Assembly: GCF_004193775.1 (NCBI RefSeq)
Contig: NC_041016.1
Coordinates: 32,411,511-32,475,510, forward strand
Source of the DNA: Glycine soja
Taxonomy: Eukaryota; Streptophyta; Magnoliopsida; Fabales; Fabaceae
Length of the DNA: 64,000 bases
Direction of reading: 5' to 3'
The translations under genes were made by a program, and so were the position numbers. Shown piece by piece: positions 4,037-57,983 of the stretch. The notes beneath the pieces were generated by a model. That model did no database searches and was not told the DNA's origin. It saw nothing but the letters and a program-made list of their open reading frames with translations. Each line of letters opens with the position of its first letter. The first letter of the stretch is position 1.

Positions 4037-5918
4037 ATCTCACACATATTCAAGTTTCAATTAAATAGTCAATGTAATTGATTATTTCAAAAAAAGTAAA
4101 CGATTATGCTATCATTTCAATCGATTAAAATGTTCTTTCCAACATCTGGGCAACTTTCAAGAACAATGTAATAGATTAGATTTTTTATTTAATTGATTAA
4201 AGTGTTTTTGATCACTTCTGGGAACACTTTTAAGAACAAAGTAATTGATTACCATTATCTGGTAATTGATTAAAACAAAGACTCATAAAAAACCAATCCT
4301 TGTCTCAACTGAAATGTGTAATCGATTACGTTTAACTTGTCATCGATTAAACCAATACGCAAATCTCTCTACAAGCTACAAACACTTGTGTAGTTGATTA
4401 TGGTCAACCTTGTAATCGATTAAAACAGAGAGTTTTATGTTAGAGATACGGGGAGCAACATGAGCAACATGGTATAGCCTAATGCTAAAGCTTGAAGCTC
4501 AACGAAAAACTTGAAGAAGTTTTGGCTTTTACATGCCCAACTCCTTTGAGTGACATTTGTATTGGTTGTTATCTTAATTGTTGCATCTTAGTAGATTTGA
4601 TATCTATTTTTCATCATGCATCATCATGGTTAGTATGAAGAAAAATTTATTTAGAGGCAAAAACTCTCTGCTTTAATTGATTACAGCCTCGTTGCAATCA
4701 ATTACAACAAGTTGTCTAAAACTTGTAGAGTTAAGTCTCATATTGGTTTAATTGATTCCCGATATCTCGTAATCCATTACACTGTTGTTTGAGACAATGA
4801 GTGGTTTAGTTAGGAGTCTCTTCTTTAATCGCTTATTTCTCTCTCATTTAAGTGTTCAGACATGAACAAGAACAATTTAATCGATTACTTAGGTCATCTA
4901 AACGATTACATTATTCTTGAGTATTTTTCCAAATGTTGAATGAGCACTTTAATTGATTACTTAGATAATATAATCGATTACTTTGCTAAAATAATTGATT
5001 ACCTTATAGATTTAATCGATTACAGACAGTTATAAATATTTTCTCTATAAATAACCAACTTGTGTTCACATCTACACATCATGAAATCATAAAAGTATAA
5101 TCAATACATCTCGAAAATAACTTCTTAGCCTTAGAATGAGCAAGATTTTGTGCTTTCATTAGTAGATAAGAGAAGAGAAGAAAAGAAAAGAGCTTTATAG
5201 TAGCTCACAACTTCTAAATCGTTTCATTTTGAAGATATTTTCTTGAAAGTGAGTTATGTCTTTTGAGTAGAAGAAGATCATCGTTTCAATCCAGCAAGGT
5301 TTTTGTGGAAAGATTGTCTGGTTGTATCTTTCCTACTTGGTTTTCTTGTGTATGGTTTTTACACGGTCTTTGCTTTTATGCGTGAATTGCTTACAACATG
5401 CTAGAATAGGATTTTCTAGTTTGGGCTAAGAGTAGGGTTCCCTTAGGTTTATATTCACAAAGGACCCTAGTTTTGGGTGCCTTAGTCTCCTTTTCCTAGG
5501 TGGGAGTTGTAGATTGGATGTGATTTCATGTAAGGATTCTTGATGCATAGTGGAAATCTAATTCAGGTTATGGATTAGATAACTGAATTAGCTTCTCTAG
5601 AAATAGAGAGTAAACTAGTATAAAAGATTGTGTCATTCTTCTCTTGTTCTAATCCTTTTCTCTCATTCAAGTTTTAAAATATTTTTTCACAAAGATTCAA
5701 GTTTTATGTTTGTTAAAGAAAGGATGTTAGTGAAGGATCATGTTTAAGGAAGGATTGATTAAGTATTGATTACCTTTGATTCATATTTGTTTTGTGATAT
5801 GATCCATACACAAGTTTTTTTGTCACTTTGTTTTTGTAAGTATATTTTGTTTTTGAAACCAATTAACCCCCCCCCCCCCCTCCCACTCTTGGTTTATTAA
5901 GTTCCATCATCTTTTTCA
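4037..5918 (+). mobile_element. Copia-type LTR (5' LTR, left end undefined)
   Basis: This AT-rich sequence holds many exact and degenerate copies of AATCGATTA, a TATAAATA box at 5046-5053, a C-run at about 5867-5881 and a terminal ...TTTTTCA. The C-run before the 3' end matches the organisation of the two copia-type solo LTRs at 17505 and 47804. The PBS follows two bases later. The left boundary could not be fixed. The foldback element at 3716 and the scrap before it may mark truncation. Confidence 0.6.
5046..5053 (+). promoter_or_regulatory. TATA box of copia LTR
   Basis: TATAAATA lies about 870 bp before the LTR end, the expected U3/R position for a large LTR. Confidence 0.5.
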
Positions 5919-5920
5919 AT

Positions 5921-5932
5921 TGGTATCAGAGC
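5921..5932 (+). other. Primer binding site, initiator Met tRNA type
   Basis: TGGTATCAGAGC is the standard plant copia PBS, complementary to the 3' end of initiator methionine tRNA. It begins two bases after the inferred LTR end and fixes the element as plus-strand. Confidence 0.85.
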
Positions 5933-6478: not shown

Positions 6479-6941
6479 TGATCCAAAATAAGACTCCAAG
6501 AAATCCAAGATAAATGATGAAGTTAGTCTCCAAATTGATGATGCATAAGTTATGGCCAAAGGTTTTTCTCAAAAGCTTTTAAAAGAGATATTTACTCTCT
6601 GGTAATCGATTACCAGTGACTGTAATCGATTACTAGTGGCCAAAGTGCTTACTGGAATGTTTTAAAATGTTTTTAATATTTTTGAAAGCTTGTAATCGAT
6701 TACACAAGACTTGTAATTGATTACCAGAAGTTTTGAACATTTAAAAACAGCCTTTAGAAATTTGAATTTAAATTTCAAAGTCTGTAATCTATTACAAAGT
6801 GTATGTAATCAATTACCTGAGTTAAAATTCAAATTTCAAATGTGAAGAGTCACAACTCTTCAGAAAACAACTGTGTAATCGATTACACCATTTTGGTACT
6901 CTATTACCAGTGAGGAATTCTCTAAAATAACTCGCAACTTT
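6479..6941 (+). mobile_element. Truncated copia-type LTR fragment
   Basis: This non-coding fragment has several GTAATCGATTAC palindromes (about 6602, 6690, 6873) in the same context, TACTCTCTGG..., as the solo LTR at 47804. It is joined directly to broken gag on the left and to chromovirus integrase on the right. It lacks both LTR termini. Confidence 0.55.
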
Positions 6942-14930: not shown

Positions 14931-14992
14931 CGGGAGTGCAAGTCTCGGTTAAGCATTTAAGGACAGAGGACCTTAAATTATCTTAAGGTGTG

Positions 14993-16665
14993 GATATGGA
15001 GCCCACTGAAAGTGAGGACGCATAGTCCTCTAAAGGCGAGGGCGTGTAGCCCTCTGAAGTTCAGGACGTGTCGCCTTTCGAAGGCGAGGGAGTGTAGTCC
15101 TATGATGGCAAGGACGTGCAATCCTCTGAAGGTGAGGGCATGCCCCTCTTTGAAAATGGGGAACATGTAGTCCTCTGATGGCGAGGACGTGTAGTCCTCT
15201 AAAGGTGAGGACATGTAGTCCTCTGAAGGTGAGGGCATGTAGCCCTACGAAGGTGAAGGCACATGACCCTTTGACGGCGAGGACGTGTAGTCCTCTGAAG
15301 TTGAAGGTACATGACCCTTTGAAGGCGAGGACGTGTAGTCCTCTGAAGGTGAAGGTAACTAGTACCCAAGGTGAGGGCGTGTAGCCCTCTCAAGGCGAGG
15401 ACATGTAGTCCTCCGGAGGTAAGGGCGTGCAGCCCTCTGATGGTGAGGACGTGTAGTCCTCTCAAGGCGAGGACGTGTAGTCCTCTGACGGTGAGGGTAA
15501 CTAGTACCCAAGGTGAGGGCGTGTAGCCCTCTCAAGGCGAGGACATGTAGTCCTCCGGAGGTAAGGGCGTGCAGCCCTCTGATGGTGAGGACGTGTAGTC
15601 CTCTCAAGGCGAGGACGTGTAGTCCTCTGACGGTGAGGGTAACTAGTACCCAAGGTGAGGGCGTGTAGCCCTCTCAAGGCGAGGACATGTAGTCCTCCGG
15701 AGGTAAGGGCGTGCAGCCCTCTGATGGTGAGGACGTGTAGTCCTCTCAAGGGGAGGACGTGTAGTCCTCCCAACGGTGAGGGTAACTAGTACCCAAGGTG
15801 AGGGCGTGTAGCCCTCTCAAGGCGAGGACATGTAGTCCTCTGGAGGTGAGGGCGTGCAGCCCTCTGATGGTGAGGACGTGTAGTCCTCTCAAGGCGAGGA
15901 CGTGTAGTCCTCTCAACGGTGAGGGTAATTAGTACCCAAGGTGAGGGCGTGTAGCCCTCTCAAGGCGAGGACATGTGGTCCTCTGAAGGTGAGGGCGTGC
16001 AGCCCTCTGTTGGCGAGGATGTGTAGTCCTCTATAAGCGAGGACGTGTAGTCCTCTTAACGGTGAGGGTAACTAGTACCCAAGGCGAGGACGTGTAGTCC
16101 TTTCAAGGTGAGGGCGTGTAGCCCTCTGATGGTGAGGGTAACTAGTACCCAAGGTGAGGACGTGTAGCCCTCTCAAGGCGAGGACATGTAGTCCTCTAGA
16201 GGCGAGGGCGTGCAGCCCTCTGATGGTGAGGATGTGTAGTCCTCTCAACAGTGAGGGTAACTAGTACCCAAGGTGAGGGCGTGTAGCCCTCTCAAGGCGA
16301 GGACATGTAGTCCTCTAGAGGTGAGGGCGACTAGTACCCAAGGTGAGGACGTGTAGCCCTCTCAAGGCGAGGACATGTAGTCCTCTGATGGTGAGGGCGT
16401 GCAGCCCTCTGATGGTGAGGACGTGTAGTCCTCTCAAGGCGAGGACGTGTAGTCCTCTCAACGGTGAGGGTAACTAGTACCCAAGGTGAGGGCGTGTAGC
16501 CCTCTCAAGGTGAGGACATGTAGTCCTCTAGAGGTGAGGGCGTGCAGCCCTCTCAAGGCGAGGACACGAGGTCCTCTGATGGCGAGGACATGTAGTCCTC
16601 TCAAGTTGAGGACTGCAGTCCTCTGATGGCGAGGACACGTAGTCCTCTCAAGGTGATAGGTACAA
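14993..16665 (-). repeat. 24-bp hairpin array, copy 1
   Basis: Tandem units of 24 bp each hold a 17-nt hairpin such as GAGGACGTGTAGTCCTC or GAGGGCGTGTAGCCCTC. From about 15342 a higher-order repeat of about 142 bp is superimposed, marked by a GGGTAACTAGTACCC palindrome at about 15357, 15499, 15641, 15786 and onward. The unit length divides by three, so long frames stay open on both strands. These are not evidence of a protein. Confidence 0.9.
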
Positions 16666-17499
16666 GTACCCAAGGGTCCACCCTTATGAGAAAGCAAGAG
16701 ATCGACTCATCGAGAGGGCTGGTCATCCCAAATCCACAAGATTTGGACATTAGATGTAGGAAATCTATGCAGTTAACATGATTTTTAGGGATGCATATGC
16801 ATGCAACCTTTGTCGTGAAATTTGGTAAATGCGGACTTCATATGAAACAATGCAATGTAATGGAAAGTTGTACAATATTCATGACATTCTTTCCCTATTT
16901 TGTGATTTTGATTTTGATTTGATTTTTTTTTGGAAAACATAGATTGACTGTCCTTTTGAAAGAGGTGATAATTCATGCGACCTTATCCTATCTTTTTGCA
17001 AATCTCTCTGGGAACTCCCTCAGAGTGTATGTTCTGTTTGATTTAGTCACTTGACCGTTTTGGAGTGACGGGAATGGAGTCGTTTGATAATTAATCAATC
17101 TATTGAAATTCCAGGGCTTGTCTCCCTTTTTTTCTTGTTTAAAAACATCGACGGGTGTGAACTTTTGATCGGCCCCTATGTTCACTTGAGGCTCATGCAC
17201 GGTGCCCCTCATTGCCCCAGTGTAAGGCTTTGAGGTACCAATCGTTGCCTTTCGTCATGACCTTGTAGGAGGGAACCTATTGGGTGAGAACTTCTAATCT
17301 GCCCCTAGGTTCGCTTGAAGTTTTTGCATGGTGCCTTTCGTTGCCCCAGTGTAGGGCTTAGAGGTACCAATTGTTGTCTTGTTTTCACGACCTCGTAGTG
17401 AGGAAGAATGAAAGAAGCAGTTGATTCTTGCAAAAAAGAATTTTCCAAGGACGAGAAATAATTGAAGGATCTTTCAGTTGATGGATTAAGTCAAATGAC
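16666..17499 (-). other. Non-coding region with 129-bp repeats
   Basis: There is no gene. Two copies of a 129-bp repeat (phase points about 17214 and 17343, GCCCCAGTGTA...GCTT) are shared with copy 2 (35361, 35490, 35619) and copy 3 (62121, 62250, 62379). The unit is 43 codons and gives fragments such as MRGTVHEPQVNIGAD. Whether it was once coding is unclear. Confidence 0.6.
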
Positions 17500-28494: not shown

Positions 28495-30070
28495 AGTCTC
28501 TGCGTGCTATCATGCTTTGAGTCTTAGAGATAGCAAAAGAAAGTTTAAAAGTGTGGGACCAAATGGTTCCCGCATGTCATCGGGCCTGCCGCCTCTGGAT
28601 GACAAAAGGTGTAGAAGACGACATTAGTCTATGCGTGCTATCATGCTTTGAGTCTTAGAGATAGCAAAGGAAAGTTTAAAAGTGTGGGACCAAAATGGTT
28701 CCTGTATGTCATCGGGCCCGCCGCCTTTGGATGACAAAAGGCATAGAAGACGACGTTAGTCTCTGCGTGCTATCATGCTTTGAGTCTTAGAGATAGCAAA
28801 AGAAAGTTTAAAAGTGCGGGACCAAATGGTTCCCGCATGTCATCGGGCCCGCCGCCTCTGGATGACAAAAGGCGCAGAAGACAACATTAGTCTCTGCGTG
28901 CTATCATGCTTTAAGTCTTAGAGATAGCAAAAGAAAGTTTAAAAGTGCGAGACCAAATGGTTCCCGCATGTCATCGGGCCCACCGCCTCTGGATAAAAAA
29001 AGGCGTAGAAGATGACGTTAGTCTCTGCGTACTATCATTCTTTGAGTCTTAGAGATAGCAAAAAAAGTGTGGGGCCAAATGGTTCCCGCATGTCATCGGG
29101 CCCGCCGCCTCTGGATGACAAAAGGTGCAGAAGACGACGTTAGTCTCTGCGTGCTATCATGCTTTGAGTCTTAGAGATAGCAAAAGAAAGTTTAAAATTG
29201 CGAGACCAAATGGTTCCCGCATGTCATCGGGCCCACCGCCTCTGGATGACAAAAGGCGCAGAAGACGATGTTTGTCTCTGCGTGCTATCATGCTTTGAGT
29301 CTTAGAGATAGCAAAAAAAGTGTGTGACCAAATGGTTCCCGCATGTCATCGGGCCCGCCGCCTCTGGATGACAAAAGGTGTAGAAGACGACATTAGTCTA
29401 TGCGTGCTATCATGCTTTGAGTCTTAGAGATAGCAAAGGAAAGTTTAAAAGTGTGGGACCAAAATGGTTCCTGTATGTCATCGGGCCCGCCGCCTTTGGA
29501 TGACAAAAGGCATAGAACACGACGTTAGTCTCTGCGTGCTATCATGCTTTGAGTCTTAGAGATAGCAAAAGAAAGTTTAAAATTGCGGGACCAAATGGTT
29601 CCCGCATGGCATCGGGCCCGCCGCCTTTGGATGACAAAAGGCGCAAAAGACGATGTTAGTCTCTGTGTCCTATCATGCTTTGAGTCTTAGAGATAGCAAA
29701 AGAAAGTTTAAAATTGCGGGACCAAATGGTTCCCGCATGTCATCGGGCCCGCCGCCTTTGGATGACAAAAGGTGCAGAAGACGATGTTAGTCTCTGTGTC
29801 CTATCATGCTTTGAGTCTTAGAGATAGCAAAAATAGTGTGGGACCAAATGGTTCCCGCTTGTCATCGAGCCGACCGCCTCTGGATGACAAAAGGCGCAGA
29901 AGACGATGTTTGTCTCTGCGTGCTATCATGCTTTGAGTCTTAGAGATAGCAAAAAAAGTGTGTGACCAAATGGTTCCCGCATGTCATCGGGCCCGCCGCC
30001 TCTGGATGACAAAAGGCACAGAAGACAATGTTAGTCTCTGCTATCATGCTTTGAGTCTTAGAGATAGCAA
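28495..30070 (-). repeat. ~130-bp tandem multi-hairpin array
   Basis: About twelve units of 121-132 bp. Each unit is a chain of dyads: TGCTATC...GATAGCA, GCGGGACC-AAAT-GGTTCCCGC, TGTCATC...GATGACA and CGCAGA...TCTGCG. Some units carry paired changes, for example TAGA...TCTA in place of CAGA...TCTG at 28609-28632 and 29381-29404. It is related to the 127-bp array of copy 1 through the loop GGGCCCGCCGCCTCTG. Confidence 0.88.
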
Positions 30071-31554
30071 AAGAAAAAGTTTATACGGATAACCATCAGA
30101 TATCTTCACATATCACATGACCCCAGGGTCAGTATGACAGAGATTGTGGGGCGGCCGACAAAAGCGAGGCTCTTGCTCCTACGTTTCCTCAATGAGGAAC
30201 TCATACCTATGTAATTCTGGATAACTTGTGAGACTAAAATAGTCTCGGTGTTTTCTTCACTAAAAATGCGAACATGCTTTAGTAATGAGACAAAACTTCC
30301 AACTAATCAGAGCAGCATATGCTTTTCGGATGTAAAACAATGTGTCTACCGGGGAAGGAGAGCATGATGATGAAATTTTTCTCATAAACATAAATGAGAC
30401 TTTGGATGTTAGCATTTTGCTTCTACATGAGCATTTAGAGGAAACACTGGGTTCATCCTAATGGTGTTAACTTTGGATGTTACTTTGAAAATCACTCAAA
30501 GTGTATCAACCTCGCACAGGTAAGTGTTTCATCCTAATTCCGAACCATAGATATGTCATGACTTGATTTTGCAAATCATTTCCTATCAAATCAAAGACTA
30601 CATGCGTGATCATGGGTCAATATGACCTTTCTTTTGGGAATGGTGTTTTTTGGTGGGAACTTTGTCTTTGAGTGTTCTTGGCCTTTTCCTTTTCTGTTTT
30701 GGTTTAGCGCGAGGCGAACAAGTCACCGACGCACAGGATTTTGGTTGGCAGTCAAAGGGAGAGGACCACTTCAGGTCGTTGTTTCCTTTCTTTTTGTGCT
30801 TACTTGGCGATAACTCGGTATTTGTTCAGATGTCGTCTGGTCTAAAGACCTTTCTGTATATTTCTTCTGTTTTCTTCCGATCTTTGATCAGGAATTTTCT
30901 TTCCTTTTTTTGCTTTCTCCCACTCTTCGATTACGAATTTTCTCTTTTTGTTTTCTCCTGCTCTTTTGATTAGGAATTTCCTTTCTTTTTTTGTTTTCTT
31001 CTGAGGGCAAGGATTGATATTCTCACCCTGGGTCAAGGTTTATGGTAAATTGGGATTTTGGCTCAAGGCTTGTAGCATGGCTGGACATGATATATGTCAG
31101 GGTTTGGTTCGGTTCAAGGATAAAAGGGGATGTCCCACATTATTTCCATGACACAAATGCAACAATGATGATTTGTAAATTTTATGCAAAACTAGTCATG
31201 CATGCACCTATGTGTACACTCAAGTGTCAAACTTTCATGGTCGTGTGATGCTAGGGCTCGTGATTCATTTTCTCTACTTTAGTCAACCCAGTGTTTCCAA
31301 AATATGTTCTTTTATCAATTTGTGCATTCACCCGAGTCTATTTTGGGTGTTCGAAAAACTTTCACAGCATTTACCCTTCAGGTGTATACACATTTCTTTT
31401 CAAAAACTGGTTATGATCAGTGAATTCTTTCAAAGAAAAGTTGGAAGTTATCTCTTTTCACAAGCATGTTGTTTTTTAGCTAGACAACTTTTTTATTTTT
31501 ATTATTTTTTTTCTTTTTTTCTCCTTTTTTTCCATGAGCTATTTTGCTACCTAA
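30071..31554 (-). other. Non-coding 3' region of copy 2
   Basis: Counterpart of 11640-13559. It holds a decayed TACGTAG module (about 30180), the hairpin GAGACTA-AAA-TAGTCTC (30230-30246) and pyrimidine-rich stretches with CCCACTC/ATTAGG-type dyads. No credible gene. Confidence 0.55.
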
Positions 31555-32990: not shown

Positions 32991-33057
32991 CTTAACCGGG
33001 AGTGCAAGTCTCGGTTAAGCATTTAAGGGCAGAGGACCTTAAATTCTCTTAAGGTGC

Positions 33058-34850
33058 AGATGTGGAGCCCTCTGAAAGCGAGGACACGTAGCCCTCTAAA
33101 GGCGAGGGTGTGCAGCACTCTGATGTTGGAGACGTATCGCTCTTTGAAGGTGAGGGCGTGCATGCCTCTAAAGGCGAGGGCATGCAACCCTCTGATGGTG
33201 AGGGCATGTAGCCCTCTAAAGGTGAGGACGTGTAGTCCTTTGAAGGCGAGGACGCGTTGTCCTCTAAAGCCCTCTGAAGGCGAGGACGCGTTGTCCTCTA
33301 AAGCCCTCTGAAGGCGAGGACATGCATCCCTATGAAGGCGAGGGCGTGCAACCCTATGAAGGCGAGGGCGTGCAGCCCTCTGATGGTGAGGGCGTGTAGC
33401 CCTCTAAAGGCGAGGACCTGTAGTCCTCTGAAGGCGAGGACACATAGTCCTCTAAAGGTCAGGGCGTGTAGCCCTCTGAAGGCGAGGACGTGTAGTCCTC
33501 TAAAGGTGAGGACATGTAGTCCTCTGATGGCGAGGACGTGTAATCCTCTGAAGGTGAGGGCGTGTAGCCCTCAAAAAGAGAGGATGTGTAGTCCTCTGAA
33601 GGCAAGGATGCGTAGTCCTCTAAAGGTGAAGGTGTGCAGCCCTCTGATGGAGAGGACATGCAACCCTATGAAGGCAAGGGCGTGCAACCCTATGAAGGCG
33701 AGGGCGTGCAGCTCTCTGATGGTGAGGGTGTGTAGCCCTCAAAAGCCAAGGACGTGCAGTCCTCTGAAGGCGAGGACGCATAGTCCTTTAAAGGTGAGGG
33801 CGTGTAGCCCTATGAAGGCGAGGACATGCAGCCCTATGAAGGCGAGGGCGTGCAACCCTATGAAGGCGAGGACGTGCAGCCCTTTGATGGTGAGGGCGTG
33901 TAGCCCTCTAAAGACGAGGACATGTAGTCCTCTGAAGGCGAGGACACGTAGTCCTCTAAAGGCGAGGGCGTGTAGCCCTCTGAAGGCGAGGACGTGTAGC
34001 CCTCGGAAGGTGAGGACATGTAGTCCTCTGATGGCAAGGATGTGTAGTCCTCTAAAGGTGAGGGCGTATAGCCCTCTAAAGGCAAGGACGTGTAGTCCTC
34101 TGAAGACAAGGATGCATAGTCCTCTGAGGGCGTGCAGTCCTCTGATGGCGAGGACGTGTAGTCCTCTGAAGGCGAGGGCATGCAGACCTTTGAAGGCGAG
34201 GACGTGTAGTCCTCTGAAGGTGAGGACATCTAGCCCTTTGATGGCGAGGACGTGTAGTCCTCTGAAGGTGAGGACATGTAGTCCTCTGAAGGTGAGGACA
34301 TGTAGTCCTCTGAAGACAAGGACATGCAGCCCTATGAAGGCGAGAGCGTGCAACCCTGTGAAGGCGAGGGCATGCAGCCCTCTGATGGTGAGGGCGTGTA
34401 GCCCTCTAAAGGCGAGGACATGTAGTCCTCTGAAGGTGAGGACGTGTAGTCCTCTGAAGGTGAGGACATGTAGTCCTCTGATGGCTAGGATGTGTAGTCC
34501 TCTAAAGGTGAGGGCGTGTAGCCCTCTAATGGAGAGGACGTGTAGTCCTCTGAAGGCAAGGATGCATTGTCCTCTGAGGGCGTGTAGCCCTCTGATGGCG
34601 AGGACGTGTAGTCCTCTGAAGGCGAGGGCATGCAGACCTCTGAAGGCGAGGATGTGTAGTCCTCTGAAGGTGAGGATATCTAGTCCTTTGATGGCGAGGA
34701 CGTGTAGTCCTCTGAAGGTGAGGGCGTGCAGCCCTCTGATGGTGAGGACGTGTAGTCCTCTGAAGGCGAGGACATACAGCCCTCTGATGGAGAGGACGTG
34801 TAGTCCTCTGAAGGTGAGGGCGTGTAACCGTCTGAAGATGAGGGTACTAG
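33058..34850 (-). repeat. 24-bp hairpin array, copy 2
   Basis: About 75 units by length. Most contain GAGGAC-N5-GTCCTC or GAGGGC-N5-GCCCTC; some are mixed (GAGGAC...GCCCTA). The array lacks the 142-bp higher-order repeat of copy 1 and ends at a GGGTACTAGTACCC palindrome (about 34840). It keeps a 513-codon frame open on the plus strand and a 380-codon frame on the minus strand. Both are octapeptide repeats forced by the 24-bp period. Confidence 0.92.
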
Positions 34851-36230
34851 TACCCAAGGGTCCACCCTTATGAGAACGCAAGAGATTGACTCATTGAGAG
34901 GGCCAATCATCCCAAATTCAAAAGATTGGACATTTGATGTAGGAAACCTATGCAGTTAACATGATTTTTAGGGATGCAGATGCATGCAACCTTTGTCGTG
35001 AAATTTGGTAAATGCGGACTTCATATGAAACAATGACATTCTTTCCCTATTTTGTGATTTTGATTTTGATTTAAATTTTTTGGAAAACGCAGATTGACTG
35101 TCCTTTTGAAAGAGGTGATAATTCATGCAACCTTATCCTATCTTTTGCAACTCTCTCCGAGAACTCCCTGAGAGTGTATGTTATGTTTGATTTAGTCACT
35201 TGACCATTTTGGAGTAACGACAATGGAGCCGTTTGACGTTTAATCAATCCATATAAATTCCAGGGTTTGTCTCCTTTTTTTTTGTTTAAAAACATCGACG
35301 GGCGAGAACTTTTGATCAGCCCCTATGTTCACTTGAGGCTCATGCACGATGCCCTTCATTGCCCCAGTGTAAGGCTTTGATGTACCAATTGTTTTCTTTC
35401 GTCATGACCTTGTAGCTGGGAACCTATTGGGTGAGAACTTCTAATTTTCCCCTAGGTTCACTTGAGGTTCATGCACGATGCCCCTCATTGCCCCAGTGTA
35501 GGGCTCTGAGGTACCAATCATTGTCTTTCGTCATGACCTTGTAGTAGGGAACCTATTAGGTGAGAACTTCTAATCAGCCCCTAGGTTCACTTGAGGTTCA
35601 TGCACGGTGCCCCTCATTGCCCCAGTGTAGGGCTCTGAGGTATCCATCTTTGTTTTCATAACCTGGTAGCAAGGAAGAATGAAAGAAGCGGTTGATTCTT
35701 GCAAAAAGAATTTTCCAAGGACGAGAAATAGTCAAAGGATTTTTTTTCAATTGACGGATTAAGTCAAATGGATCCTATTCTTGTTAACTCACTTCTCTCT
35801 AAAAAAGAAAAAATTTATGGAATGATAAAATGAGGTCACATGAATGTCTATATTTTTACTTGAAAACACAGTCAATCAAATGCTTTTTTTCTTTTTGAAC
35901 TTTTCTACTTTACTCGTTGTTTACGGCACCCCACCAACGTGCAGGACGAGTAATCTCTGATTGAACGGTCTTGGAAGTCAACACTCAAGGGCGCAGGTCG
36001 CTTTGAGCAAACAAACCAATGGCTTACACTCACATTCCGGTGGAAGTTGAATAAGCAAAGATGTGTTTCTGAGAGGATGAGAGAGACAAGGATGTCAAAT
36101 TCATCCATTTTAGCATTGTAACTGTTGTTTATAATAATGGAATAAACTTGAAAATCCTGATGAGTCATTAGAGACATCTAACAACAGCTTTTAAAATTGC
36201 CCCATGTGTGCTGTTGTTTGTCAATGTTAG
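34851..36230 (-). other. Non-coding region with 129-bp repeats, copy 2
   Basis: Contains three 129-bp repeats (phase points 35361, 35490, 35619). It also has a stretch (35905-36177) whose minus frame, SLMTHQDFQVYSIIINN onward, is weakly conserved after the zinc knuckle in all three copies but matches nothing I recognise. Confidence 0.5.
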
Positions 36231-43973: not shown

Positions 43974-44375
43974 TGGTAATCGATTACCAAGGGTGGGTAA
44001 TCGATTACAAGGCTTAAAATTGAAGACAGGAGGCTAAGATGGTCTCTGGTAATCGATTACCAAGGGGTGTAATCGATTACCAGGCTTGAAAACGAGGTCA
44101 GGAAGCTAGGGAAACCTCTGGTAATCGATTACCAAGGGGTGTAATCGATTACCAGGCTTAAAAAGGGAACTGGGAGATGGCGGAAGCCTCTGGTAATCGA
44201 TTACCAGCCTGTGTAATCGATTACACAGAGGAATGGGTCACTGGTAATCGATTACCAGGCATGTGTAATCGATTACACAGTGTATTATTGCATATTTCAT
44301 GTCCTGAGGCTGTGTAATTCAAGTTTAGCCTCTGGTAATCGATTACCAAGGCTGTGTAATCGATTACCAGAGATG
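43974..44375 (+). repeat. GTAATCGATTAC palindrome array
   Basis: Twelve exact copies of the 12-bp palindrome lie in six pairs. The flanks extend the symmetry in different ways: CTGGTAATCGATTACCAG (about 44192) and CTGTGTAATCGATTACACAG (about 44209). Confidence 0.88.
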
Positions 44376-46785: not shown

Positions 46786-47803
46786 AAGACTCCCAGAAGA
46801 TTGGGCCAGAGATGCAAGAGAAGGCCCTAGGATTCTCATGAGCCTTAAGGTAAATTTCGGGCCCATGGGCTAAGTATGAGCCCACTTATCTTTGTACATA
46901 TTAGATTAAGGTTTCATTATTTTTGGGCCTTGTATTTAGGGCTCCATAATGTAGGTAGGATACCCTAGAAATGTAAGATTTTTCAACCCTTGTATTTTAG
47001 GACACCTAGACTATAGTTTTTGTATTATGGGTAGTTTTATAATTTCACATGCATTAAGTGAATATTTGATGTGTGTGCTGGGTGTTAGTCATCTTTTATG
47101 ACTAATTTTTGGTATAGAAAAGTTTCTAAAATGTAAATAAATCTCCCAATTTATGGTTATTTTTTGGTAGGATTGTAAATATTTCTAGTTTAGTTTTCAT
47201 TTGTGCTCAGTAAAAGCCTTCCTATTGAATTTAATGTAAATTTCACTTCAATTTCAAGTAAAGAGGAGAAAATTATGAAGGTTCAAAATGTGTTGTCTCG
47301 CTAAGCCTGAACCATGCGCTTAGCAAGACCAAACCGCTAAGCGAGACAGTAGTGGCTTAGTGCATGAGGATAAGCCTAAAGAGAGTTCTCCCACGCCAAC
47401 ACGCGCTTAGCACATATGCAGTTCGCTAAGCGAGGCAATTGTCTCTTCTACACTAAGCACAAGATTGGCGCTAAGCCAAATATCACTTACTCGCACTAGG
47501 CGCGAGAATGGTGCTAAGCGCGCCTTCGAGGTCAGAAAGCCCTTTTAAAGCCTGATTTGCACAGAAAAAAGGAGAGAGCATGATGACGTGAAAGAGGTCT
47601 GAATTGACTGCGAATTGTGTGCAGAGAAGACATCCCCACTGCTTTGTAATCTGAGCAAGGAAGCAAAGGTCCTAACTTTTAGGTAGATTCTAGGTTTTAG
47701 AGTTATTTTCTAGGTTCTTAGAGGTGGAGGAGACATCCCCATTGCTTTGTAATATGGTATTTTCTCTGTAACCCTTCTCCTATTTATGAAAGTTGCTCCC
47801 TTG

Positions 47804-49514
47804 TGTAGAAGCAAAGCTTCATGGTGAATCAAAGGTGATTCAAAGGTGTTTTGATGATAACAAAAGATGATGACAAAGGTGATGACAAAAAGCTCAAAGA
47901 TCAATCAAAGGACAACTCAAGTGAATCAAAGATCAATCAAAGAAAAACTCAAGTGAATCAAGAACAATTCAAGAGTTCAAGATAAGAATAAAGAACAATT
48001 CAAGACTCAAGAAGAAAGTTTAGAGTCAAGAATCAAGATTCAAGGTTCAAGATCTCAAGAATAAAGATCAAGATTCAAGACTCAAGATTCATGAATCAAG
48101 AGAAGGCTTAATCCAGATAAGTATGAAAAGTTTTTCTCAAAAATTGAGTAGCACATGATTTTTCTCAAAACATGTTTACCAAAGAGTTCTTACTCTCTGG
48201 TAATCGATTACTAGGTTGTTGTAATCGATTACCAGTAGCAAAATTGTTTTGAAAAAGTTTTCAAATTGAATTTACAACGTTCCAATTAATTTCAAAAAGT
48301 TGTAATCGATTACAATGTTTTGGTAATCGATTACCAATCCCTTTGAACATTGAAATTCAAATTCAAATGTGAAGAGTCACATCCTTTCACATAAAAGCCT
48401 TATGTAATCAATTACATTGATTTTGTAATAGATTACCAGTGACTGTTTCTGAATAAATCTAAAGATGTAACTCTTTAAAAAGGTTTTGACTTTTTCAAAT
48501 TGGTTTTAAGTTTTTCTAAAAGTTGTAACTCTTCTAAATGGTCCTCTTGGCCAAACATGAAGAGTCTATAAAAGCAAGGCTTTGATTTGTTTTTCAAAAA
48601 TTCATTCATTTTAATCTTGAACACTTATTTCATACAATCCTTTACAAGCCTTGAATCTCTTTTAACTTCTTCTTCTTCTTTGTACCAAAAGCTTTATGAA
48701 GTTTTCTGGTTTTCCAAACCTTGAAAACTTGTGCTATTCATCTTTTTCATTCTCTTCTCCCTTTGCCAAAAAGAATTCGCCAAGGACTAACCGCCTGAAT
48801 TCTTTTTGTGTCTCTCTTCTCCCTTTTCCAAAAGAACAAAGGACTAACCGCCTGAATTCTTTTGCGTCTCCCTTCTCCATTGTCAAAGAATTCAAAACGA
48901 CACAGTCTGAGAATTCTTTTGATTCTTCCCATTCCCTTATACAAAAGTGTTCAAAGGACTAACCGCCTGAGAATTCTTTTGTATCCCCATTCACAAAGTA
49001 TCAAAGGTTTAATAGCTTGAGATCTTTGTCTTAACACATTGGAGGGTACATCCTTTGTGGTACAAGTAGAGGGTACATCTACTTGGGTTTGACTGAGAAA
49101 AAGAGAGGGTACATCTCTTGTGGATCAGTTCTAGTGGAGGGTACATCCACTAGGGTTTCAAAGAAAACAAGGGAGGGTACATCCCTTATGGATGTTTGCT
49201 TGTAAAAGGATTTTTACAAGGTTGAAAAAAATCTCAAGGACCACAGGTCACTCGGGGACTGGATGTAGGCATGGGTTGTTGCCGAACCAGTATAAAAACG
49301 CTTGTGTGTATGTTTCCTTCTTCCCTACTCTTTTACTTTCCGCTGTGCATTTAATTTCCGCTTTTACTTTCTGTTAAGTTTCTCTTCTACTCCTCATTCT
49401 CTTAACAATTTAGTAAAAGCCTTAGAAGAGTAATTTTTTAATTGGTAAAGGTTTAGGAATAATTAATTCAACCCCCCCCCCTTCTTAATTATTCTGAGGC
49501 CACTTGATCCATCA
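47804..49514 (+). mobile_element. 1,711-bp copia-type solo LTR
   Basis: It starts TGTAGAAGCAAAGC and ends ...CTTGATCCATCA, flanked by perfect duplications CCTTG (47799-47803 and 49515-49519). It contains six GTAATCGATTAC-type palindromes (48200-48440), a C-run before the 3' end, and a ladder of ten hairpins (48767-49187). It shares its termini with the 717-bp solo LTR at 17505. It has no coding capacity beyond short repeat frames. Confidence 0.9.
48767..49187 (+). repeat. Ladder of ten constant-loop hairpins
   Basis: Set 1 (48767-49029): five hairpins whose loops derive from a shared CAAAGGACTAACCGCCTGA-like sequence. The arms include CAAAAAGAATTC/GAATTCTTTTTG, CAAAAGAA/TTCTTTTG and ATACAAAAG/CTTTTGTAT. 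Set 2 (49035-49187): five hairpins with loop GGGTACA and arms GGA/TCC (plus outer CACA/TGTG), CAAGTAGA/TCTACTTG, AAGAGA/TCTCTT, CTAGTGGA/TCCACTAG and AAGGGA/TCCCTT. Arms differ between units yet stay complementary. Confidence 0.92.
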
Positions 49515-50240
49515 CCTTGTAATAGAGGGCGAAAATCCTTTGTTGGGAATTTCTACTGAGTACTTGATGTAAATATTTTTATTATCTATTTGAGGTTATT
49601 TTCATGTGTTCAATGTTTCTATCTTATTTATTTTATGCATGCTTGTGGTTTGATCACCCATTGGTGTGTGCTGTTAGGAACTTTAGCATTGACAAATGTA
49701 CTGTTTCCTTGGAACTTGATAAAGCAGGGCTAGATAACTGTAGTGCTAGACGTAGTGTGTAGGGTTCTAGTTTTTATTATGCTATGCTTATAATGCTGTT
49801 TAAATTAGGCTAAGTTCAGCAAGAGATATCTGCAAACGAAGCTTAGTTTAAATTAGTCCAAACTCACGAGACATCAGTGTTGTTATTTTTGTCCTCAGCG
49901 TAGAACACAGGAATAATTTCAAATAGAGAAAAACCCTAATTTCATAAGTATCTTGATGGAAGGACCCAACGCTTTTACTTATTTGTTTTCACACTCAATT
50001 GTTCATGTTTACTGTTTCTTTGATTACAATAGAATATACCTTTGTTTTCAATTCATGATACTTAATTCTTTTTACAAACAGTTGTATTTTGAATGACGTT
50101 TTTCCAAATAAAATCAGTTCCTTGAGTTCGATACTCGGATCATTTCGTTTTAATTATTTACTTCACGATTCGGTGCACTTGCCGGTAGATTTCACACCCA
50201 CACAAACAAGTAGTATTCCTAGGGGCGGAAACAAGTATTT

Positions 50241-51193: not shown

Positions 51194-53423
51194 TGTCATA
51201 TCCTAATTTCATCCGGGGACCATCCGATTGTTGGGATGCGACCTTCGTTTGACCACTTCGAGGTACTTGGCACCCATCGTTAGGCAATCCGTGAAGTTCC
51301 GTAACATGTCGGAAGTCAAAAGAAAGCATTGTTGCACAATCCGTGAAGTTTCGTGACATTCCGGAAGTCAAAAGGAAGCATTGTTGCACAATCCGTGAAG
51401 TTCCGTAACATCCCGGAAGCCAAAGAAGGGATGATTACGTAATCCATAAGGTTTCGTGACATTACGGAAAGAAACCAAGTATTGTTACGTAATTCGTAAA
51501 GTTCTGTAACGTTACGGAAAAAGAATCAGCAAAAAAGGCAGGGGTGTATTTAGTAAACAGGGGGGGTGCATATAGCAACCAGACCCACTTGGGCCTTCCA
51601 GGAAGTTCCACCAGAAGGCGGTGCCTTCTGGAGGAAGCAACCTAGCTCGCCTTGGCAAGCTGGGTGGCAAGCTCCTCCCTTTTTTTCCTTTAAATAGGGG
51701 GAGGAGGGCAGAACAAAAATGTTCAACCCTCCTGGTATTTGAGAATCACTTAAAATTAGTGAGAAAAATTGTTTCTAAGAAGAAAATCCAAGCCGAGGTG
51801 CTTCCGTGATGTTTCCGTGGGTGATTTCGTGAGGATTTTCCATCGTTCTTCGTTCGTTCTTCGTCGTTCTTCGGTTTTCAACCGGTAAGTTCCCGAAATC
51901 GAACTTTTCAATTCATTTACTTTTTGTACCCCCTTTTGACGTGCTTTAGTCATTTATTTAAGCCATTTTCTCGCCTAATCAAAAAATAAAATAAATTTCC
52001 ACCGATCATTCGTATTGTAACATCTTTTAATTTATGTTAAAATGAAATCCGACCGTTCGGTCATGCCGCAACCACGTTTAAAACCAAAAAAAGAGGCAAA
52101 ATAATAATATAATAATAAAAAAATATCTTTTAGTAAAATAATAAAAAAATTCAATCGGACGTTTTTCTTGGGATTTTCCTTTCTTAATCGAATTGACTAA
52201 TAATCAAGGAGAAACTAAGGCTAAAATCAATTCATAAATGAAACTTTTGTCATCAACTAAAAAGTCGTTTTTAAGGTCCAACGCCTTTGATGTGCCATCA
52301 TTTTCTTCTATTTTCTAAACCCTTTTTGCACCATTTTAATTATTGATTGGTCTTAATTGTTAATTAATTAGGCAGTTTTATTATTTGGGCCCATTCAGCT
52401 AATTTGATGTTTTTAATCTAATTTCAGGAATTAATGAAGCATTGGGCTTGAATCTAGAATTGGGCTTGGACTTGAAGAGGGCAGACTAATTTATTCTATA
52501 AAATTAGATCTTATCTTATCTAGATATTATTTAGATTTGATCTCATCTAGATATTATTTCATCTAGATCTTATCTTATCTTATCTTATCTAGATTTGATT
52601 TGATTTTACTTATGGGCTTGGATTTAAAACATATTTGTAAGCTTTGGGGCTGAAAAAAACTATATAACAGCACCAAGGTTCTAGTTTAGAGGGCTCCCTC
52701 TCTCCCTCGCGGGAGACTCTCTCTCTCTCCTCTCTCTCTTCTATTTTTCGTTTTTAGTTTTAGTCTCTCTTCTCTTTCTCTTTTATTTTCGTTTTTTTTA
52801 CAATTCCAGTTCAGACTTTTAGTTTTATCAATAAAATTTCATTCTCTATTTGATTAATGGAAGGCTAAGTCCGCAGCGTTGTTTTCCCTTGAGGATCAAG
52901 CACAGTTCTCTTTGAGGTTCTATTATTACTGTTAAATTCTGTTTAGTTTTTCCTCTTCACTAATTACTTTGAATTTGTTGCTTTTAATTCATGCATGCTT
53001 AGTGCTTGATTAATTGTCTCTGCGCTTAATTTACGTTCATGCTTAATGATCGTTTATGAGTAATTGGTGTATGTGATGCTTAATCACATAATGAATGCCT
53101 TATGTTGAATTTCGCTTAGTAATTTAATTTAGGGTTGGATTAAGTGGTTAAACTGATAAAGGATAAACTCTCGTAACCTAGGATAAGAGACTTGCTTGTG
53201 AATCAAGGGGAAGCAACGTGTTTTAATTCTGATATTTTCTAATTCACATATATTCGCTGTTTAATTTACAAAAGCAAACAACCCCCCCCCCATCGTTACT
53301 GTTACTGTTACTGCAAGTATATTATGAACATTTGGCTTGTCACTGCTCGTTGGGAAACGACCTAGGATCACTTCCTAGTTTCTACATTTTAATGTTTATT
53401 TGATTCGGGTACGGCCTCGATCA

Positions 53424-54061: not shown

Positions 54062-54643
54062 GTGAAGATTGTGCAGCCAAGCAGGAAAGATTGGAGTACC
54101 AGGCTTGATGACGCTCTCTGGGCACATCGGACTGCCTACAAAGCACCCATAGGAATGTCTCCTTATCGGGTTGTCTTTGGAAAGGCATGTCATCTTCCAG
54201 TGGAAATTGAGCACAAAGCATACTGGGCAGTGAAGACTTGCAACTTCTCTATGGATCAAGCTGGCGAGGAAAGGAAGTTGCAACTGAGTGAGTTAGATGA
54301 AATCCGCCTAGACGCCTACGAGAATGCCAAGTTCTACAAAGAAAAGACCAAGAAGTTCCATGATAGCATGATAGTTAAAAAAGACTTTGTGGTTGGGCAA
54401 AAAGTGTTATTGTATAATTCTAGGCTTGGACTCATGAGTGGTAAGTTGAGGTCTAAGTGGATTGGTCCTTTTGTTGTTACTAATGTTTTTCCTTATGGTA
54501 CAGTTGAGATCAAAAGCGACTCCACAAACAAGAGCTTCAAGGTCAACGGACATCGACTTAAGCCATTCCTCACGAACCCTTCTTTAGTGGACGTAGTGGT
54601 GGAAGAGACTTCCTTACTCCACCCTACTCTTCCTCCACCATGA
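54062..54643 (+). pseudogene. Athila-type integrase C-terminal part
   Basis: 193 open codons. The first third is the end of the integrase core ([39 protein letters not shown]). The rest is the C-terminal domain ([46 protein letters not shown]). The zinc-binding region and most of the DDE catalytic core are missing, so it is inactive. It stays open to the natural stop at 54641. Confidence 0.85.
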
Positions 54644-55569: not shown

Positions 55570-56198
55570 CGAAAAAAAAAAAAAAAAAAAAAGCAATAAA
55601 GTTGAGTGAATAAGATCTTAAATGGCACAAGAATGATGAAACTCTTGGTTCTACTCTTCATGTTTAATTTTTATCTTTACTTCTTTTTATTTTCTTATTT
55701 TTTTTTCTTAATATGCACTTATTCCCCTTTGCTCCTCTATTCCTTTGGGATTTAGCCACTTATTCCATATTTCTCCATACCTTGTCCTTGGCCCCATTAC
55801 AACCTTAAAAGACATTTTGATCCTCATGTGCTTGTGTTTATGGGTTGATTGTCAATTTTAGAATCTTGCCAAGTTTATGTGGTGTTTGCTTTCATGGGTG
55901 CTTTGAGGGTAAATAGTAGCCTAGACACTTGAGAGATAGAGTGTATATCTTGTGAGGCTTTATCACTTTTCATTCTTGAGCTGATTAACTATTTTGCCAT
56001 GATTGGGTTGCTTGGATGATTTTCATGAATGTCTTGACTTTTTGGATCTCCTTATGTTAGATGTTACCCATTCCTTTTATTCCTTGATGTTCATTGAGAA
56101 ATATGTCAATGTTTTTGTTTGTCTCCCTCTGATATCCTTGGATTTTGTTCTTTGTTTCATTTTGCCCAGGAGTGCAAAAGGCTAAGTATGGGGGGTTT
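54644..56198 (+). other. 3' non-coding region of Athila derivative
   Basis: A first PPT-like GTATGGGG... run is at 54768-54785 and the real one (AAGTATGGGGGG) before the 3' LTR. A poly(A) tract lies at 55525-55592 with one TTCG interruption. Small frames here are not conserved in any way I can recognise. Confidence 0.6.
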
Positions 56199-57983
56199 TG
56201 ATGTGCCATCATTTTCTTCTATTTTCTAAACCCTTTTTGCACCATTTTAATTATTGATTGGTCTTAATTGTCAATTAATTAGGCAGTTTTATTATTTGGG
56301 CCCATTCAGCTAATTTGATGTTTTTAATCTAATTTCAGGAATTAATGAAGCATTGGGCTTGAATCTAGAATTGGGCTTGGACTTGAAGAGGGCAGACTAA
56401 TTTATTCTATAAAATTAGATCTTATCTTATCTAGATATTATTTAGATTTGATCTCATCTAGATATTATTTCATCTAGATCTTATCATATCTTATCTTATC
56501 TAGATTTGATTTGATTTTACTTATGGGCTTGGATTTAAAACATATTTGTAAGCTTTGGGGCTGAAAAAAACTATATAACAGCACCAAGGTTCTAGTTTAG
56601 AGGGCTCCCTCTCTCCCTCGCGGGAGACTCTCTCTCTCTCCTCTCTCTCTTCTATTTTTCGTTTTTAGTTTTAGTCTCTCTTCTCTTTCTCTTTTATTTT
56701 CGTTTTTTTTACAATTCCAGTTCAGACTTTTAGTTTTATCAATAAAATTTCATTCTCTATTTGATTAATGGAAGGCTAAGTCCGCAGTGTTGTTTTCCCT
56801 TAAGGATCAAGCACAGTTCTCTTTGAGGTTCTATTATTACTATTAAATTCTGTTTAGTTTTTCCTCTTCACTAATTACTTTGAATTTGTTGCTTTTAATT
56901 CATGCATGCTTAGTGCTTGATTAATTGTCTCTGCGCTTAATTTACGTTCATGCTTAATGATCGTTTATGAGTAATTGGTGTATGTGATGCTTAATCACAT
57001 AATGAATGCCTTATGTTGAATTTCGCTTAGTAATTTAATTTAGGGTTGGATTAAGTGGTTAAACTGATAAAGGATAAACTCTCGTAACCTAGGATAAGAG
57101 ACTTGCTTGTGAATCAAGGGGAAGCAACGTGTTTTAATTCTGATATTTTCTAATTCACATATATTCGCTGTTTAATTTACAAAAGCAAACAACCCCCCCC
57201 CCCCATCGTTACTGTTACTGTTACTGCAAGTATATTATGAACATTTGGCTTGTCACTGCTCGTTGGGAAACGACCTAGGATCACTTCCTAGTTACTACAT
57301 TTTAATGTTTATTTGATTCGGGTACGGCCTCGATCATTGAAATGGTCTTTTCCGCTTTTATTGGTTAAACGTGGATTTCTAAAAGCCTAAAATCAACATG
57401 TACCTTTGTTACCTCTTTCAAAAATAACAAGAGATCACTAATGGTCCAATGCCTTAATGTTTTCTCTCCTTTCAAAAAGAATCAAAAGATCGTTTAATGG
57501 TCCAACGCCTTAAATGACCTTTCATTCAATAAAAATATATCTTGCAAAAAAGGATAAAAAACAATTTAACCAACGTTTAGTTCTCAAAGAACTACGTAGG
57601 TCTGATTTCCTTATCACAATTGAGGAATACGTAGGAGCAAGGGAAACACCCTTGTCGACCACAAGAAGATAAAAATATAAAAAGGAATAAAAGACATAAG
57701 AACGTAAAAAGGGGAAGATAACACAAATTGAAGTCATGTTTGCACACTTGATTAAAGGTTGTCGTCCCTTGTGACGGACGCGTGGGGCGCTAATACCTTC
57801 CTCGTGCGTAAATACAACTCTCGAACCTTTCACTTAAAGTTCGTAGACCACGACGCCTTTTCTGGTTTTTCTGACGTTTTCCTCGAATAAATGTTGGTGG
57901 CGACTCCGCGCGTTTTCCTCCCATGGAAGACGCACCCGTGAGCCCTCGCGTCGCCCTCCCGCCGCAGGGTAGGTTGTGACAGT

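Follow-up and report, generated by a model that had tools for sequence, protein, structure and literature searches.

Structure of the hairpin array

We analysed a stretch of 64,000 nucleotides (nt) of the Glycine soja genome (contig NC_041016.1, positions 32,411,511 to 32,475,510 of the forward strand), referred to below as the window; all positions are given relative to its first letter. The window contains a solo long terminal repeat (LTR) of a Sirevirus-like copia retrotransposon, and this LTR carries five consecutive hairpins that share the loop GGGTACA. The data presented here argue, with a probability of roughly 0.7, that the five hairpins are a selected RNA structure.

The loop is found on the plus strand at 49044, 49071, 49107, 49139 and 49175. 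Thus the row of five GGGTACA loops (49044–49181) reported in the original prediction, which was made from the letters of the window, is confirmed. The same prediction placed the array within a copia-type LTR, as is borne out by the solo LTR with its CCTTG duplication (Table 1), and described all five stems as fully paired. The latter holds for hairpins 2–5, with perfect arms CAAGTAGA/TCTACTTG (8 base pairs, bp), AAGAGA/TCTCTT (6 bp), CTAGTGGA/TCCACTAG (8 bp) and AAGGGA/TCCCTT (6 bp), but not for the first hairpin, CACATTGGA/TCCTTTGTG, in which 3 bp are followed by two T.T mismatches and 4 bp. The hairpin types alternate in the order B1, A1, B2, A2, B3. The A hairpins have 8 bp, and B2 and B3 are bipartite, with an 8-bp inner helix A-CAAGRGA/TCYCTTG-T, an internal loop GA/GGA and a 6-bp outer helix. 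The window copy is slightly decayed, pairs being broken at 49100 (B2) and at 49188 and 49194 (B3). At these three positions 27, 25 and 28, respectively, of the 29 compared close copies have a different base, mostly the pairing one.

Table 1. Features of the LTR and of the hairpin array (window positions)
Feature	Position	Strand	Basis or remark
Target-site duplication CCTTG, left	47799..47803	.	Direct repeat at LTR edge
Solo LTR of a Sirevirus-like copia retrotransposon, TG...CA, 1711 bp	47804..49514	+	CCTTG direct repeats on both sides, TG start, CA end
Candidate right arm of the Sirevirus polypurine tract (PPT)/3'LTR inverted repeat, TTTTGATGATAACAAAA	47849..47865	+	45 nt inside LTR
GTAATCGATTAC palindromes upstream of TATA, in the place equivalent to Sirevirus RM boxes	48197..48334	.	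Inverted-repeat listing
TATA box TATAAAAG	48567..48574	+	Read from sequence; 45% into the 1711-bp LTR
Upstream series, five imperfect hairpins with larger loops	48767..49029	+	Loop and arm listing
Hairpin B1, CACATTGGA-GGGTACA-TCCTTTGTG, 3+4 bp with T.T/T.T gap	49035..49059	+	Arm listing
Hairpin A1, CAAGTAGA-GGGTACA-TCTACTTG, 8 bp	49063..49085	+	Arm listing
Hairpin B2, bipartite, outer GACTGA/TCAGTT, inner helix around loop 49107–49113	49091..49130	+	Folds, copy comparison
Hairpin A2, CTAGTGGA-GGGTACA-TCCACTAG, 8 bp	49131..49153	+	Arm listing
Hairpin B3, bipartite, outer CAAAGA/TCTTTG in relatives, inner helix around loop 49175–49181	49159..49198	+	Copy comparison, folds
Hairpin CTTGTAAAA-GGAT-TTTTACAAG closing the series	49199..49220	+	Inverted-repeat listing
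U5 anchor GGGGACTGGATGTAG, used for sampling copies	49254..49268	+	Exact-site scan of assembly
C10 run, Sirevirus poly-C integrase-signal type	49472..49481	+	Read from sequence
Target-site duplication CCTTG, right	49515..49519	.	Direct repeat at LTR edge

Pairing beyond chance

Perfect stems in the region 49030–49195 comprise 28 bp, whereas 200 dinucleotide shuffles gave a mean of 5.1 (sd 5.0) and a maximum of 19. This greedy count used hairpins 2–4 and a competing 6-bp stem, ACATCC/GGATGT, which replaced the fifth hairpin (also 6 bp). The predicted RNA fold of the same region has a Z-score of −3.34, none of 200 shuffles being as stable, and contains hairpins 2–4. Hairpins 1–4 form in a 700-nt fold (z = −2.47, 20 shuffles), and for the close copy L057 the prediction (−67.2 kcal/mol) consists of exactly these five hairpins. 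Of the 120 ways of combining the 5' and 3' arms, only the true one attained the observed 31 contiguous bp, and the next best yielded 28. Own arms thus outperform swapped arms, and therefore shared ancestry of the arms alone is insufficient to account for the pairing. The own-arm energies of B1, A1, B2, A2 and B3 are −7.4, −8.5, −9.1, −10.9 and −11.2 kcal/mol, respectively. Orthogonality of the stems as a design was considered as well and is seen only in part, given that the 5' arm of B3 cross-pairs with the 3' arms of B1 and B2.

Comparison of the tandem units

Hairpins 2–5 are arranged as two tandem 68-nt units, A1+B2 and A2+B3. The units of L057 differ at 12 of 68 sites, all of them among the 42 stem nucleotides; the remaining 26 nt are identical. 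The 12 differences form six both-sided compensated pairs among the 21 counted (an eighth inner pair, which is invariant, was left out), with no one-sided changes. Two of the compensated pairs belong to A1/A2 and three to B2o/B3o. Under a uniform substitution model, 12 random changes retained 12.8 of the 21 pairs on average and 20 at most (200000 trials), and the chance of all 12 changes missing the 26 non-stem sites is 0.0015. The 90 genomic copies described below have 476 both-sided unit differences, with both pairs standard in 459, and 125 one-sided ones, 40 of them standard; since the copies are related, these differences are not independent events.

Variation among genomic copies

A scan of both strands of the assembly (1119 contigs, 1.01 Gb) gave 4410 exact sites for the anchor used for sampling and none for its reversed control. 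The first 100 anchor places listed, all on C1 and hence not a random sample of the 4410, together with the window yielded 101 copies. A near-loop was defined as GGGTACATC with up to two mismatches. At least five near-loops were found in 90 of the 101 copies, and, given the 4410 anchor sites, thousands of LTRs in this genome probably carry the array. The 11 copies with fewer near-loops (L078, L091, L094, L105, L116, L126, L128, L134, L139, L140 and L146) were excluded from the pair counts. In four of them (L091, L094, L105 and L126) the array has apparently suffered deletions, the 5' side of one hairpin being joined to the 3' side of a later one. The set of close copies comprised 30 sequences including the window; L058 was omitted because of an indel. 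Genome-wide enrichment of GGGTACA as such was looked for and rejected: the assembly has 43623+43522 sites, fewer than the 48578+48428 of the reversed control.

Hairpins B1, A1 and A2 are fully paired in 81, 81 and 73 of the 90 copies, the inner and outer helices of B2 in 67 and 64, and those of B3 in 75 and 75. The count for the outer helix of B2 is lowered because gaps were scored as unpaired. The loops, in array order, are intact in 76, 74, 75, 71 and 79 copies, and the internal loop GA/GGA is kept in 86 (B2) and 81 (B3). Two alternative states are common at two pairs: 49132/49152 of A2 is T-A in 52 copies, A-T in 35 and other in 3, and 49091/49130 is G.T in 55 and A-T in 20. Off-majority cells, which count copies and not events, include 40 both-sided cells, 39 of them standard pairs and 35 due to the A2 swap, and 184 one-sided cells, 68 of them standard pairs. 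The exact inverted loop TGTACCC was found in none of the 101 copies.

Rates of change were then computed as changes per site on a tree built from the flanks. On internal branches they equal 0.10 for stems (101 sites), 0.29 for loops (35 sites) and 0.00 for other array sites (25 sites; 0.07 over 27 if two gappy linker sites are included). Downstream of the array, the rate is 0.45 for the closing hairpin (49199–49220) and 0.97 for the following 33 nt of U5; upstream, it is 0.41 for the nearest 34 nt and 1.45–2.37 further away. The far-upstream values are inflated because the alignment is poor there, and the near flanks provide a fairer comparison; internal-branch change in the array is still below theirs. 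On terminal branches the rates are 1.63 for stems, 1.89 for loops and 1.08 for other array sites, as compared with 1.25 for the next hairpin, 2.58 for the 33 nt of U5, 2.26 for the upstream 34 nt and 3.23–4.47 further upstream.

Sister families and the upstream series

Two of the excluded copies, L078 and L128, represent sister families; the cross-family statements therefore rest on single copies. In L078, a chain of hairpins follows the TATA box, approximately 48 to 345 nt upstream of its anchor. Loops of the ACTAACCG type on CAAAAG stems alternate there with CAAGAAG(T)/(A)CTTCTTG stems that bear the loops GGATTTG, GGGTACA and GGACATA. Compared with A1, the latter stem differs at two pairs, both compensated (the closing A-T to T-A and the fourth T-A to A-T). 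L128 has a perfect CACAAAGGA/TCCTTTGTG pairing, pointing to the T.T gap of B1 as a later, derived defect. The hairpin that closes the series is also found in L078 and, with a changed loop, in L128.

Three loops of the upstream series are AGGACTAACCGCCTGA, on stems related to CAAAAGAATTC/GAATTCTTTTG. The perfect-stem count of this region (28 bp in 48745–49030) is within the shuffle range (mean 12.3, maximum 37). Five loops of this type are also present in L033. The core of the upstream-series loop is similar to ACTAACCG of L078, which alternates there with GGGTACA-type hairpins.

Type of the LTR and position of the array

Judged by its sequence features, the host of the array is the LTR of a Sirevirus-like copia element. 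The Sirevirus junction is described as an LTR ending in CA, a spacer A(T/G)TGG and a 9-nt primer-binding site (PBS) TATCAGAGC (PMC2829016). This arrangement is seen in relatives, the window copy being a solo LTR: the junction ...GATCCAACA-AGTGG-TATCAGAGC adjoins the LTR end in L035, L057 and L058 (3 of 30 loci), and in a second set of 30 loci the LTR of L082 also continues into AGTGG-TATCAGAGC. The TATA box lies near the middle of the LTR, as in Sireviruses (PMC2829016). The position of TTTTGATGATAACAAAA roughly matches the description of the PPT/3'LTR inverted repeat in the same source, and the left arm of that repeat would fall outside a solo LTR. The C10 run ends 33 nt before the LTR end, the reported average being 21 bp (PMC2829016).

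The GTAATCGATTAC palindromes of the U3 part are AT-rich and lack the CGG-CCG core of RM boxes. A similar exception, Tnd-1 ACAATCGATTGT, is mentioned in PMC2829016, where RMs are present in 13 of 21 elements. These palindromes recur in the window at 43992–44207, in a three-copy 72-nt tandem repeat whose other two units match the first at 79% and 72% identity.

From the TATA box it is 468 nt downstream to the start of the array and 477 nt to its first loop. The array is therefore predicted to lie in the RNA leader. A very short R region was proposed for the Sire set of Benachenhou et al., a set that those authors distinguish from what other work calls Sireviruses (PMC3601003). If this applies here, the array belongs to U5 and would be present in the 5' leader only.

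Proposed selection for RNA pairing and competing explanations

Selection for RNA pairing is favoured because it explains both the compensated differences between the units and the low internal-branch change of the array. In its specific form, which we prefer tentatively, the array is an RNA structure in the R/U5 leader of a Sirevirus-type copia transcript, kept by selection in active lineages; its transcription and its folding in vivo are presumed. The array would then display a G-rich loop with GUAC several times over, on stems that are interchangeable. The repeated loops may form a multivalent site for the zinc knuckle of the element's own Gag and/or pair loop to loop between two genomes, so that the RNA of the element would be dimerised and packaged. 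The differing stem sequences may partly limit mispairing between adjacent hairpins. Such Gag binding and/or dimerisation is possible, if somewhat less assured than the leader structure itself. It fits the position after the TATA box, the loops with exposed G and self-complementary GUAC, and the CCHC-knuckle Gag that Sireviruses encode (PMC2829016); retroviral nucleocapsid binds exposed G in hairpin loops (PMC7599994). A role in translation or RNA stability is conceivable as well. We regard as doubtful the proposal of a new packaging/dimerisation element of plant Sireviruses, defined by a repeated GGGUACA loop on drifting but paired stems and possibly, in a sister family, by an alternating second loop module ACTAACCGC.

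A number of observations weigh against selection for these five hairpins. For the window copy itself, the array is predicted to fold into hairpins 2–4 only, the arms of the first and fifth pairing together, and the fold of L033 is imperfect at A1 and B2. The 5' arm of B3 pairs with the 3' arm of B1 (−9.2 kcal/mol) more strongly than B1 pairs with itself (−7.4 kcal/mol), and also pairs with the 3' arm of B2 (−8.2 kcal/mol). The helices for the unit test were picked after the folds had been seen. Linkers between hairpins vary in length in the wider sample, and the T.T/T.T gap of B1 is kept in 88 of 90 copies. Loops change more per site than stems on internal branches (0.29 versus 0.10), the stems of L078 are constant and its loops differ, and the loop form GCGTACA is common to 6 (B1, 49045) and 7 (A1, 49072) of the 90 copies, hinting at a subfamily in which the loop has altered. 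Where off-majority cells fall on G-C pairs, A.C (58) is more frequent than G.U (39); the dead copies therefore bear no sign of selection, as expected after insertion. Finally, most pairs are near-invariant between copies, and high-frequency covariation is seen at 49132/49152 alone. With respect to unpaired stem changes and covariation in other copies, by which the original prediction was to be judged, the result is thus mixed, as unpaired changes do occur in dead copies (the 184 one-sided cells, 68 of them standard). Its statement that loops stay constant and stems diverge is valid between the hairpins of the window array, fails between genomic copies and is reversed in L078. Selection for a structure with a recognised loop had also been suggested. 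The structure is supported by the six compensated pairs of L057, the 459 of 476 both-sided differences and the low internal-branch change, whereas recognition of the loop is something we infer, the loops being no better conserved than stems between copies and variable in L078.

The pairing may instead be maintained, as the original prediction also proposed, by template switching (quasipalindrome correction), in which one arm serves reverse transcriptase or DNA polymerase as the template for the other and no selection on RNA is involved. Such correction is documented, and its enriched footprint is multiple compensatory changes in one event (PMC8794818). One event each could suffice for the two compensated pairs of A1/A2 and the three of B2o/B3o, and the T-A/A-T swap of A2 is a transversion without a wobble intermediate. 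However, template switching alone leaves unexplained the low internal-branch change of the entire array, unpaired sites included, and the identity of the 26 other nucleotides between the L057 units, and the T.T mismatches of B1 remain uncorrected in the 88 copies. The absence of inverted loops in 101 copies is weak evidence against it, because loop inversions were very rare among the template switches of PMC8794818 as well. On balance we consider this explanation unlikely. Hitch-hiking is less likely again: the hairpins would have arisen by tandem duplication of a single hairpin in a young family and would be conserved through recency, devoid of present function. The near-invariance of most stem pairs in 90 copies, the abundance of the anchor and the loss of pairs in dead copies are all in line with it, but the flanks of the same copies are more variable on internal branches, and all 21 pairs were kept after 12 random changes in none of the 200000 trials.

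A role at the DNA level, with imperfect palindromes serving as host-factor sites or cruciforms in the manner of Sirevirus RM boxes, seems improbable. Palindromic repeats are known in Sirevirus LTRs (PMC2829016), and the GTAATCGATTAC boxes of the window LTR do lie upstream of its TATA box; the array, however, lies about 470 nt downstream of it. Moreover, the arms differ between hairpins, although binding by a protein should keep them fixed, and G.T is common at 49091/49130. We assign the lowest likelihood, a very small one, to the hairpins being substrates for small RNAs or host silencing, a role that has been suggested for the palindromes of maize Sireviruses. Stems of 6–14 bp, such as those of the array, are short for dicing, and silencing would presumably favour loss of pairing rather than its upkeep. 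An excess of small RNAs is reported at the maize palindromes (PMC5311732, PMC10760457), but these are situated in the cis-regulatory part of the LTR.

Relation to known systems

The array is real, abundant and unusual, and is best interpreted as a selected leader RNA structure of a Sirevirus, a variation on known structured retroelement leaders and Sirevirus LTR repeats. To our knowledge, little is known about how plant LTR retrotransposons choose RNA for packaging. If the array binds Gag, a packaging signal could be read from the sequence, and the same logic could be used for searching other plant elements; if it results from template-switch repair, it is a natural record of that process in retrotransposons. 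The natural compensated stem changes in a compact array provide ready-made test RNAs.

The array shares with the RM boxes of Bousios et al. (2010, PMC2829016) a Sirevirus LTR and several copies of an inverted-repeat motif per LTR. RM boxes, as described there, precede the TATA box and are possible promoter elements; they are repeats of a single palindrome, in most cases built around CGG-CCG. The array, in contrast, follows the TATA box, and its hairpins share one 7-nt loop, have unlike arms and include bipartite helices; thus it does not resemble RM boxes in position or in the repetition of one palindrome. With the packaging and dimerisation hairpins of retroviral 5' leaders (PMC7599994, which cites work on the GACG hairpin pair of murine leukaemia-type viruses) it would have in common several predicted leader hairpins and exposed loop G, but it belongs to copia and has five tandem hairpins with one 7-nt loop. 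Kissing loops in the 5' RNA of Ty1, also an LTR retrotransposon, are proposed to start genome dimerisation (PMC5454406); in Ty1 these are two different loops that complement each other, and a pseudoknot is also involved, whereas the loop of the array contains self-complementary GUAC. The degenerate packaging signals of satellite tobacco necrosis virus (PMC6475782) are likewise multiple stem-loops with a common loop motif. There the motif is AxxA, the virus genome has several such sites and their weight in vivo is questioned by the same paper, while the array is clustered in one leader. Hairpins maintained by template switching (PMC8794818) resemble it in having stems with multiple compensated changes and differ in that the unpaired sites of the array are conserved too and loop inversions are absent from 101 copies (weak evidence).

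An Rfam search over the LTR returned five matches at E ≤ 1, all far below the gathering score and none on the array. Among viral contigs, the scan for the upstream-loop pattern found 10 stretches without LTR similarity beyond one 19-nt match, and the scan for the two-loop pattern found none. Bacterial and archaeal genomes contained 12 pattern stretches, unrelated by eye, and plasmids and phages had no match to 48560–49514. In the literature, no hairpin array downstream of the TATA box in a Sirevirus LTR appeared among the matches listed, which consisted of titles and abstract openings with few subscription journals.

Other repeats in the window

By eye, a second Sirevirus-like LTR end is seen at 5867–5932, with a C14 run, TGGTATCAGAGC and an apparent start of copia gag. 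The region 6580–6930 resembles, also by eye, the U3 part of this general LTR type, without the hairpin array. The direct repeats 52286–53423 and 56197–57336 are 99.3% identical over 1140 bp. The open reading frame at 54062–54643, between these repeats, looks integrase-like by eye, and the whole is perhaps a young LTR retrotransposon. Self-comparison of the window also revealed large repeat arrays at 28495–30076, 14966–16675 and 33024–34859.

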